Shown here: positions 37,991 through 40,497 of the stretch, in pieces
How positions within the stretch are numbered: the stretch's first letter is position 1
How the letters are laid out: each line of letters starts with the position of its first letter
Assembly: GCA_023485865.1 (NCBI GenBank)
Contig: JAMCZC010000035.1
Span: 1 to 44,131, forward strand
Source of the DNA: Patescibacteria group bacterium
GTDB taxonomy: Bacteria > Patescibacteriota > Microgenomatia > Levybacterales > UBA12049
Reading direction: 5' to 3'
Length of the DNA: 44,131 nt
Notes under the pieces: generated by a model
What the model was told of the DNA's origin: nothing
Databases searched by the model: none
What the model saw: the letters and a program-made list of their open reading frames with translations, nothing else
Program-made: the position numbers and the translations under genes

Positions 37991-38100
37991 CCCGTTAGAA
38001 GCAGATCGCGATCTGCCTAAATTCTCCTTTGTTTATGATTTTAATTTTATTCATAATTCACTCCGATTAAATTCTTTTGCGATCGCGGCTTCTAACGGGA
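37990..38100. repeat. 111-bp MITE-like/hairpin element with 13-bp terminal inverted repeats
   Basis: tcccgttagaagc (37990..38002) and gcttctaacggga (38088..38100), flanked by cgca on both sides; internal perfect palindrome gcagatcgcgatctgc at 38001..38016. Confidence 0.6.
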
Positions 38101-38826
38101 CGCATCTTGAATTATTTTTTTGAAGTCATCGTAGCTTCGGGGATTTGCAATTTGCACTCCGTTTACAAAAAAAGTTGGAGTAGCGTTAATGCCGATACTT
38201 GAAGCTTGGTTTTGTGAATCTGCTACATAATTTTTAGTTTCATCGGAAGTCATATCTTTTTGGAATTTATCGGTATCAAGCCCTAATTTTTTGGCGTAAG
38301 CAACAAACGTGTCGGCGGCAGAATCGCTTTGGGCCCAGGAAGCTTGAGTTTCAAAAAGCATGTCGTGCATTTCGAAGAATTTGCCTTGAAGTTTTGCGGC
38401 GTAAGCGGCCTGTGCCGAAATCAGCGCGTTTTTATGAATACTTGTTAAGGGAAAAAACCGGTAAGCAAAATATATTTTATCGCCAAACTCACTCAAAAGT
38501 TGTTTTACAAGCGGGTGATAGGCGGCACAGGCCGGGCACTGGAAGTCGGCGTACTCAACCAGAGTTATTTTTGCTTTTGGATCTCCTTTAGTAATGTCGT
38601 TTTTAGAAACCGGCGGAAGATTAATTGCCGACGAAGATGAAGAGGGGGAAGAACCGGCAAGTTTAATAAGCCCAATAACCGAAAGTCCGACAACTAAAAC
38701 CACCCCTATTATTATGCCCCATTTCTTAAGCAGCGCGTTTCTTTTTTGTGTTTCCGCCTTTTCCTGCCACTCTTGTCTTCGAAGCTCTTTTCTTTCTTTT
38801 TTGGTCAGCTTTTGCTCATCAGCCAT
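38092..38826 (-). CDS. DsbA/DSBA-like thiol:disulfide oxidoreductase, membrane anchored
   Basis: VEYADFQCPACAAYHPLVKQLLSEFGDKIYFAYRFFPL...INATPTFFVNGVQIANPRSYDDFKKII. Start set at MADEQKLTKKERKELRR because the upstream extension overlaps tRNA sequence. Confidence 0.92.
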   Translation of the reverse strand: MADEQKLTKKERKELRRQEWQEKAETQKRNALLKKWGIIIGVVLVVGLSVIGLIKLAGSSPSSSSSAINLPPVSKNDITKGDPKAKITLVEYADFQCPACAAYHPLVKQLLSEFGDKIYFAYRFFPLTSIHKNALISAQAAYAAKLQGKFFEMHDMLFETQASWAQSDSAADTFVAYAKKLGLDTDKFQKDMTSDETKNYVADSQNQASSIGINATPTFFVNGVQIANPRSYDDFKKIIQDASR

Positions 38827-38873
38827 AGAGGATATAATGGCACTTTGCCGGTTAATTTTCAAGAGGGAATTTG

Positions 38874-39050
38874 TCGGAGAGGAGGGAATTGGACCCTCTG
38901 TCTCTGCGTCCTTCACCCCGTTAATTACTTGTCGGAGACCGCGGAATTGAACCGCGTGCCTCTCGGTCCCGAACCGAGCGTTCTACCGATGAACTAGTCT
39001 CCGTAAATTAACGGGGCGGACGCAGCGTGATGCCGGTTCACTACACTCCG
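38874..39050 (-). tRNA. Interrupted tRNA-Pro-like gene: 5' half 39050..39017, 3' half 38911..38874, broken in the anticodon loop by a 105-nt insert
   Basis: Halves CGGAGTGTAGTGAACCGGCATCACGCTGCGTCCG + GGACGCAGAGACAGAGGGTCCAATTCCCTCCTCTCCGA give a 72-nt cloverleaf: acceptor 6/7 pairs with C1-G72 and A73, D stem GTGA/TCAC, anticodon stem CTGCG/CGCAG, loop TCCGGGA, variable AGACA, T stem GAGGG/CCCTC. Confidence 0.7.
38932..39003 (-). tRNA. tRNA-Pro(CGG), nested inside the interrupted tRNA-Pro-like gene
   Basis: CGGAGACTAGTTCATCGGTAGAACGCTCGGTTCGGGACCGAGAGGCACGCGGTTCAATTCCGCGGTCTCCGA: full cloverleaf, anticodon loop TTCGGGA, C1-G72, A73, no encoded CCA. Confidence 0.95.
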
Positions 39051-39116
39051 AAACCCCAAACAATTTTACCATTAAAATGATAAAATTATAAGTGTCTTAA
39101 GTTTCTTAAGTAACTT

Positions 39117-39671
39117 ATGTTGCCAAAGTACAAATATTTATTAACCTATCGTTACTCTTTGTTAATCCATGATTTAACAGTTGAATTTACTCTTAAATTT
39201 ATGGCGGGGTTCGATTACCGAAGAAGCAGGGAGCAAATGGTTCAGGCAGCCAGATCCGGAAAGCAGAATATAGTAGAAGGAGTAGGCCAGAGTTTAATTT
39301 CGAAAAAAGGAGAGATAAAACTTCTGGGAGTTGCCAATGCTTCCTTGGAAGAACTCCTGTCGGATTATGAAGATTTTTTGCGTCAGCATAGCCTTGAAAT
39401 TTGGCCAAAAACAGATATTAAAATTAGCAATTTTAGAAAAATTGCTTATAGGCTAAGTGTCTTAGCTAATTTAAGTAACCTAGGAGAATTTAAAGAAAAA
39501 CCAAAACTTTCAGAAAATCCCGAAGAAGCTGCAAATTTTCTTTTAACACTCTGCCACCAAGCCACATTTTTACTTTCAAGACAGATTGCAAAAATGGAGG
39601 AGATATTTATAAGAGAAGGCGGTTACAGCGAAAATTTGTTTAAAAAGAGATTAAATAGTAAAATTAAGTAA
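39117..39671 (+). CDS. Four-helix-bundle protein (S23/IVP-like, Avd-superfamily style)
   Basis: REQMVQAARSGKQNIVEGVGQSLISKKGEIKLLGVANASLEELLSDYEDFLRQHSLEIW...CHQATFLLSRQIAKMEEIFIREGGYSENLF; paralogous to 15422..16069. Confidence 0.85.
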   Translation: MLPKYKYLLTYRYSLLIHDLTVEFTLKFMAGFDYRRSREQMVQAARSGKQNIVEGVGQSLISKKGEIKLLGVANASLEELLSDYEDFLRQHSLEIWPKTDIKISNFRKIAYRLSVLANLSNLGEFKEKPKLSENPEEAANFLLTLCHQATFLLSRQIAKMEEIFIREGGYSENLFKKRLNSKIK

Positions 39672-39698
39672 CTTAAGTAGCCTAGGCTACTTATTAAT

Positions 39699-39770
39699 GC
39701 CCTTGTAGCTCAACGGATAGAGCAGCGCAGTCCTAACGCGCAGATAGAGGTTCAATTCCCCTCAAGGGTA
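39699..39770 (+). tRNA. tRNA-Arg(CCT)
   Basis: GCCCTTGTAGCTCAACGGATAGAGCAGCGCAGTCCTAACGCGCAGATAGAGGTTCAATTCCCCTCAAGGGTA; anticodon loop GTCCTAA; acceptor GCCCTTG/CAAGGGT. Confidence 0.93.
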
Positions 39771-39771
39771 C

Positions 39772-40497
39772 ATGAATAAGTCAGAAATTATCCGCTACCT
39801 TATCCTTCGTTCAATTGGCAATTTTTTGGTTTTGTTTGCAATTTTTGGGGTTTTGGCAACTTTTGGTCCGGCTGCCTACTACGAAATTTCTTTTAAAATA
39901 GTTCAGGCCAGGGGAGTCCATTATCGGGTTTATGAGCCCAAAGATACGACATCGCCTCTCGGGGAGATTCTAAAACAGCAAAAAATTGGGTCTGTTAAAG
40001 TTTATAGCGGCGGATTTGCAGATGTTCTGGCGGGTCCAAAAGAGCAGATTTTGATACCTAATGATACATCTTTTGATATTTTGATACCAAAACTTGGGGC
40101 AAACGCCAAAGTTTTTCCTAACGTTGACGCATCAGATGAAAACCAGTTTTTACCGGTTTTAAAGCAGGGAGTTGCTCACGCAAAGGGAACTGTTTTCCCC
40201 GGAATGAAGGGTAATATTTATCTTTTTGCCCACTCAACCGATAACTTTTGGGATGTTGGCAGGTATAACGCTATTTTTTATCTTCTAAAAGATCTTTTGC
40301 CTGGCGATGACGTAGTAATCTTTTTCCAAAACAAAAGGTATAATTATGTAGTTACAGGTTCAAAAACGGTCGACCCTTCTGATGTTTCGTACATTGTAAA
40401 TGCGCAAAACCAGAAGTCCGAAACCTTGATTTTGCAAACCTGCTGGCCTCCGGGGACTACCTGGAAAAGATGGCTAGTTTTTGCAAAGCCCAAGTAA
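39772..40497 (+). CDS. Sortase family protein
   Basis: N-terminal TM; FDILIPKLGANAKVFPNV; NIYLFAHSTDNF (His); ETLILQTCWPPGTTWKRWLVFA (Cys/Arg). Confidence 0.93.
   Translation: MNKSEIIRYLILRSIGNFLVLFAIFGVLATFGPAAYYEISFKIVQARGVHYRVYEPKDTTSPLGEILKQQKIGSVKVYSGGFADVLAGPKEQILIPNDTSFDILIPKLGANAKVFPNVDASDENQFLPVLKQGVAHAKGTVFPGMKGNIYLFAHSTDNFWDVGRYNAIFYLLKDLLPGDDVVIFFQNKRYNYVVTGSKTVDPSDVSYIVNAQNQKSETLILQTCWPPGTTWKRWLVFAKPK

Follow-up and report, generated by a model that had tools for sequence, protein, structure and literature searches.

A complete tRNA-Pro(CGG) gene sits in the anticodon loop of an older tRNA-Pro gene with the same anticodon on a 44,131-nucleotide contig (JAMCZC010000035.1, assembly GCA_023485865.1) of a member of the Patescibacteria, a stretch that we call the window over its full length. 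The inner gene has apparently taken over the job of the older one. It is one of many such loci: tRNA genes within tRNA genes of the same anticodon were found for many tRNA types, at sites that are empty in some relatives and filled in others, with remnants at several stages and with successive layers. The explanation that we favor, with moderate confidence, is that tRNA genes are replaced by nested insertion, and the pattern points to a so far undescribed route by which essential tRNA genes are replaced.

The nested tRNA-Pro locus and its relatives

The locus spans 177 nt of the window (38874-39050) and has the following parts, given from its 5' end to its 3' end:

39017..39050, minus strand: 5' half of the outer (older, type A) tRNA-Pro(CGG), 34 nt, with the acceptor 5' strand, D arm, anticodon 5' strand and the loop bases TCCG (C33)
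38912..39016, minus strand: entire insert in the outer anticodon loop, 105 nt, filled here and an empty site in three relatives (G016, G031, G056)
39006..39016, minus strand: left arm of the inverted repeat, CCCCGTTAATT (sequence and fold)
38932..39003, minus strand: inner (newer, type B) tRNA-Pro(CGG), an intact, presumably functional gene (RF00005, 60.1 bits; ARAGORN)
38916..38926, minus strand: right arm of the inverted repeat, AATTAACGGGG (sequence and fold)
38874..38911, minus strand: 3' half of the outer tRNA-Pro(CGG), 38 nt, with the anticodon 3' strand, variable region, T arm, acceptor 3' strand and A73

The initial annotation of this DNA had placed a complete tRNA-Pro within the anticodon loop of a second one, and its coordinates and letters were correct on recheck. 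Rfam and ARAGORN both detect the inner gene, neither reports the split outer halves in place, and ARAGORN calls the outer tRNA, once rejoined in silico to 72 nt, as tRNA-Pro(CGG). The outer tRNA has an uninterrupted homologue in G016. The insert consists, in order, of an 11-nt repeat arm, TA, the 72-nt tRNA-Pro(CGG), CAAGT, the second 11-nt arm and TGAA. The arms pair perfectly over 11 bp at the insert boundary, as expected of the terminal inverted repeats of mobile palindromic elements; the insert length, this perfect repeat and the 8-bp extended anticodon stem described earlier are all borne out by sequence and fold. The whole region folds at -80 kcal/mol (z = -5.07, with 0 of 200 shuffles as good), and its minimum free energy (MFE) structure comprises the 8-bp extended anticodon stem, a one-sided 3-nt bulge, a continuous 12-bp helix, the inner tRNA, and the outer acceptor and T arms.

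The type A tRNA is uninterrupted in three relatives, and is identical to the outer tRNA of the window at 68 of 72 positions in G016, 61/72 in G031 and 60/72 in G056. No base has been gained or lost relative to G016, so that the empty site is precise, and the G016 loop reads TTCGGGA where the window has TCCG before and GGA after the insert. Joining these two pieces gives the anticodon CGG with C33, as the initial annotation had pointed out; C33 is the sole abnormal base of the outer tRNA, all three relatives having T33. Judged from the sequences, chance is excluded for this outer tRNA, because its rejoined form is called tRNA-Pro(CGG) and matches the uninterrupted G016 gene so closely. The T6:T67 acceptor mismatch noted earlier does exist but is not a sign of decay, since it is natural and occurs in the uninterrupted gene of G056; the T-loop GGTCCAA was likewise rejected as such a sign, being a natural variant that occurs in the uninterrupted gene of G031.

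A group I intron, which the initial annotation had already discounted, or another known intron was ruled out: cmscan against Rfam (E up to 1, group I core included) gave no intron match in 38000-40000, and only 33 nt of the insert remain besides the tRNA. A split tRNA encoded as separate halves was rejected, as the halves are not the sole source, having between them an intact gene with the same anticodon, and so was a fragment of an integrase attachment site, given that a complete copy sits between both halves of the other tRNA and that the insert measures 105 nt. In the genome to which the window belongs (G000; 680 kb in 41 contigs, 94% complete, searched with Rfam only), the inner gene alone represents tRNA-Pro(CGG) among the tRNAs found, and the additional CGG gene that the annotation had suggested looking for did not turn up; the other tRNA-Pro has the anticodon GGG (contig C9), and UGG was not found.

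At this same tRNA, relatives represent different stages: type A is whole in G016, G031 and G056, B lies within A in the window, B is accompanied by a 3' piece of A in G004, G022 and G034, and B stands alone in G044 and G047. The inner B sequences of the window and G004 are identical. Decay of the outer gene in relatives, which the initial annotation had named as grounds against its own proposal, is largely what these genomes show, with only 3' pieces left in G004, G022 and G034 and none in G044 and G047. In G253 and G027, B is itself interrupted by an intact tRNA C, and the 3' half of A comes after B; in G092 and G080 two 5' halves lie outside one intact tRNA. The innermost gene of the layered loci is the intact one, and some loci show three generations. 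The same multilayer tRNA-Pro region was found in L036 (G027:C96) and L082 (G253:C5), genomes assigned to different families, which may reflect contamination or recent transfer.

The window and several relatives share the gene order DsbA, tRNA-Pro, (intervening-sequence-like gene), tRNA-Arg(CCT), sortase. The neighboring genes in the window are the following:

39699..39771, plus strand: tRNA-Arg(CCT), marker of the syntenic locus, adjoining tRNA-Pro(CGG) in most fetched relatives
39117..39671, plus strand: gene for a four-helix protein like that of 23S rRNA intervening sequences, lying between the tRNA-Arg and tRNA-Pro genes (weak Pfam match; context)
38092..38808, minus strand: downstream DsbA-like thioredoxin gene, synteny marker (context)

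The insertion is probably specific to the lineage of the window, because its nearest relatives by sortase identity, G031 (77.6%) and G056 (73%), are both uninterrupted. The intervening-sequence-like gene also lies between tRNA-Arg and tRNA-Pro in G034, G047, G096 and, more distantly, G253.

Cognate pairs across the Patescibacteria

We searched genomes for two T-arms within 50-80 nt overall (28-58 nt between consensus stretches), too close for tandem tRNAs, a pattern that does not denote a nested locus in every case. Such pairs were present in 93 of the 374 class genomes searched, in 53 of 287 from the phylum and in 2 of 50 from other bacteria, the last serving as the control outside the candidate phyla radiation (CPR); a reversed control pattern gave no match in nearly every genome. 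The fetched loci contain 138 distinct T-arm pairs, 126 of them with an intact tRNA over the first arm. An outer 5' half was recognized by similarity in 80 of these 126 loci and was undetectable in the remaining 46. The inner tRNAs include Val, Ile, Arg, Thr, Leu, Glu, Gln, Trp, Lys, Gly, Cys, Met, Asp and Pro. The arrangement, for which a search of related CPR genomes had been suggested, recurs widely, so the window is not a unique case. A broader pattern scan of genome and viral contigs, too loose in that it accepted a T-arm plus a chance match, led to no recognized nested locus except L191, which is the same locus as that of G051, a relative in the family of the window. The closely spaced T-arms of L475-L480 (G688 and G697, outside CPR) appear to be tRNA 3' remnants in tandem.

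Rejoining the outer loop to 7 nt can yield the inner anticodon (e.g., Ile in Ile, Val in Val) in 29 of the 37 loci with an intact outer anticodon stem, compared with a mean of 4.2 and a maximum of 12 when inner anticodons were shuffled among loci, and all 29 rejoined outer tRNAs are called as tRNAs of that anticodon. The insertion point varies by tRNA from 33/34 to 37/38, lying at 35/36 in Ile and Thr, 37/38 in Val, 33/34 in Arg(TCG) and 34/35 in Glu. Assigning the outer isotype by similarity of the 5' half alone was unreliable, as it matched intact upstream tRNAs, and was replaced by masking and rejoined anticodons. At the level of sequence, a tRNA inside a cognate tRNA is a pattern that recurs for many amino acids across the phylum.

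Repeat arms are found at the insert boundary in many nested loci. Perfect flanking helices of at least 8 bp surround 27 of the 126 nested inner tRNAs versus 3 of 126 after shuffling, and among 214 non-nested tRNAs such helices are near the shuffled level; two of the longest four in this group (L290, L445) belong to tRNAs that are themselves nested or beside a remnant. Frequent arms are CCTGCCCGCC/GGCAGGCGGG and CCCGCCTGCC/GGCGGGCAGG. Arms are shared between tRNA types and reappear as dispersed palindromes, though with differing cargo, and arms of the same type as those in the window (CCCGTTAATTT/AATTAACGGG) surround a different inner tRNA in L022 and L043. Related palindromes that contain no tRNA (23-44 nt) occur at dispersed sites in 11 of 60 relatives, nearly all of the fetched ones having no tRNA nearby. 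An origin of the inner tRNA as a duplicate of the outer one was rejected for most loci, since the median 3'-end identity between the two is 72% over a background of 66% and reaches at least 95% in only 6 of 126.

Other hairpins and repeats were seen around these tRNAs. Four nested Cys loci from genomes of different families (L277, L280, L328, L339) have an extra hairpin separating the inner tRNA-Cys from the 5' half of the outer tRNA, with a recurring internal ATCTT...TTAGAT motif and GGGATCCCG, whose paired bases vary in compensatory ways. In L279, L284, L298, L305, L349 and L358, intact Val, Asp or Ile tRNAs are followed immediately by tRNA 3' fragments in which a hairpin like GGTCCGAT...ATCGGACAGGTC takes the place of the anticodon arm. 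In L340, L363, L364, L023 and L030, the D arm of the outer tRNA has additional palindromic hairpins, and the hairpin core of L364 is identical in sequence to a dispersed palindrome in G070 (L489). G154 has short repeats in tandem (46 and 40 nt) of a tRNA 3' end beside intact tRNA-Thr and tRNA-His genes (L310 and L312).

Fate of the outer tRNA and alternative explanations

In the replacement that we favor, a small unit of DNA, consisting of a tRNA gene between the arms of a hairpin-forming inverted repeat, would enter the anticodon loop of a resident tRNA gene with the same anticodon. Insertion would destroy the resident yet supply a working cognate copy, so that the cell would survive and the newcomer would become indispensable, while the split older gene, now redundant, would drift and then be deleted. 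In the window, a type B tRNA-Pro would have split the older type A that its three relatives still keep whole. The inner gene alone would be functional, and the unit would move as mobile DNA, resembling a palindrome or a miniature inverted-repeat transposable element (MITE), with a helper enzyme. The cognate-only pairing would then represent exactly those insertions that survive and persist, with the cargo becoming essential there.

Across relatives, the innermost tRNA is intact and has the same anticodon as the outer one, which is therefore redundant. Some outer tRNAs have no 5' anticodon strand or no 5' half at all. T-stem positions, which were not used for selection, are paired in 92.9% of cases in outer tRNAs with a 5' half and 87.7% in those without, versus 98.4% in 893 intact tRNAs (P = 4e-6 and 2e-9, respectively, for the excess of mismatches). 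In G269, a single contig of 1.08 Mb with 47 ARAGORN tRNAs, three nested loci (Gly-TCC, Ile-GAT, Ile-TAT) and a 3' remnant (Ala-TGC) were found, each outer tRNA being duplicated by an intact inner or neighboring one. ARAGORN finds no tRNA-Asn and a single odd tRNA-Ser in this genome (L387-L446), which also has an array of unusual anticodons at 655448-656048, either an assembly gap or a mobile tRNA array.

Several observations weigh against replacement by a mobile unit. Many outer tRNAs are very well preserved, with 7/7 acceptor pairs in 64 of 80, and all 29 rejoined cognate outers are recognized as tRNAs, both of which also fit function. Identical arms surround different inner tRNAs (L030/L083 versus L080), arms and cargo thus not being a fixed unit. 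Movement as a free unit is inferred, because tRNAs flanked by inverted repeats were not seen outside tRNA genes among the 214 non-nested tRNAs compared. A link to a transposase is lacking as well: Y1_Tnp genes occur in 14 of 20 nested genomes versus 9 of 20 others, and a connection with the palindromes was not supported, as these lie beside just 2 of 20 fetched Y1 transposase genes. As for preservation, acceptor integrity was rejected as proof of function, and the state of the outer tRNAs mostly reflects youth, because those without a 5' anticodon strand (L022, L318, L282) keep 7/7 acceptor pairs too.

The alternative that survives best, although we regard it as unlikely, is an intron-like process, a "tRNA twintron," in which RNase P and 3' processing would free the inner tRNA, the repeat helix would hold the outer halves, and an endonuclease and a ligase would rejoin them, both tRNAs being functional. 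The outer cloverleaf is indeed intact in many loci, the rejoined loop is canonical with the same anticodon in those 29 of 37, and helices show compensatory changes between loci (Val L338/L346, CCTGC/GCAGG to CCAGC/GCTGG; Cys L277/L280). However, RtcB (PF01139) is absent from 18 of 20 nested genomes, including that of the window, insertion sites differ among tRNAs, and several outer tRNAs are without their 5' anticodon strand or their 5' half, or have additional hairpins. A tRNA-less or noncognate insert in a functional tRNA is not established, and at the window locus neither an Rfam intron nor a bulge-helix-bulge (BHB) motif was found, the MFE fold having 8 bp, a one-sided bulge and a 12-bp helix. 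A functional rejoined outer tRNA is less likely than replacement, given the excess of stem mismatches, the truncated outers and the scarcity of RtcB, and the proposal of the initial annotation that the halves are joined after excision of the inner tRNA is not upheld on the same grounds, the outer also being redundant. Quite improbable is the broader version in which both tRNAs function and the outer halves, helix-held after excision, are joined by an RtcB-independent bacterial pathway for many amino acids across the Patescibacteria; if true, it would mean bacterial tRNA introns that carry a tRNA.

Next in order, and likewise doubtful, is an origin in place, in which a dispersed palindrome would enter the anticodon loop and a cognate tRNA would follow by homologous exchange with foreign DNA, the tRNA-carrying unit never moving. 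The existence of tRNA-less dispersed palindromes, the identical arms with different cargo and the restriction of repeat-flanked tRNAs to nested loci are all consistent with it, but the intermediate, a lone palindrome in an anticodon loop, would presumably destroy a single-copy tRNA, and in G269 ARAGORN detected no insertion into an anticodon loop that lacked a tRNA. We give still less credence to remnants of integrase-mediated integration, in which a phage or an integrative and conjugative element (ICE) would have entered the tRNA gene with a restoring copy and later been deleted, leaving tRNA pieces behind. This would suit the 46 loci of 126 without a detectable outer 5' half; the 80 two-halved loci speak against it, no element is present, the inserts are of about 0.1 kb, and that of the window fits the empty site exactly. 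Assembly artefact or chance, suggested by the mostly draft genomes and by the region shared between G027:C96 and G253:C5, is very improbable and is refuted as a general explanation by matches in about one-fourth of the sampled genomes of the class in many families, many more cognate pairs than chance would give, a control pattern with hardly any matches and the lack of matches in 48 of 50 non-CPR genomes.

Significance and comparison with known systems

We found no description of a cognate tRNA between the halves of its predecessor, or of any tRNA gene inside a tRNA gene, in the open-access papers searched, although subscription papers or preprints may exist, and the arrangement apparently remains undescribed, as had been supposed at the outset. 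Essential, mostly single-copy tRNA genes in reduced genomes appear to be repeatedly replaced by cognates landing inside them, and the layers of remnants left behind are readable as a kind of fossil record. Such replacement would account for the tRNA fragments and unusual tRNA predictions of CPR genomes and suggests a small element made indispensable by destroying and replacing an essential gene. A possible tRNA-splicing route of the Patescibacteria also becomes testable.

Group I introns occupy anticodon loops of bacterial tRNAs, the same position as the inserts described here, but the insert of the window has no group I core, no Rfam intron match and only those 33 nt besides the tRNA. Rickettsia palindromic elements, repetitive extragenic palindromic (REP) sequences and MITEs are short dispersed hairpin-forming repeats that also occur within genes, and the repeat arms resemble them in these respects; unlike in those elements, a tRNA gene lies between the arms, and insertion is into the anticodon loop of a cognate tRNA.

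Archaeal and eukaryotic tRNA introns and split and permuted tRNAs (PMC4090602, PMC3978253) share with the nested loci the interruption of the anticodon loop and an interrupting sequence that forms a helix. Archaeal tRNA introns can transpose among tRNAs, and introns are present in CPR rRNA genes (PMC10714607). In the nested loci, however, the insert contains a whole cognate tRNA, there is no BHB motif, RtcB is usually absent and the outer tRNA is seemingly redundant. The principle of restoring what is disrupted is already known from phages and ICEs, which integrate into tRNA genes with the gene being restored (PMC9897764). The likeness lies in the targeting of a tRNA gene, the restoration of a functional copy and the partial copies that remain; in place of a kilobase-sized element or a one-sided partial copy, the nested loci have a complete cognate tRNA between both halves of the older gene, in an insert of 0.1 kb.
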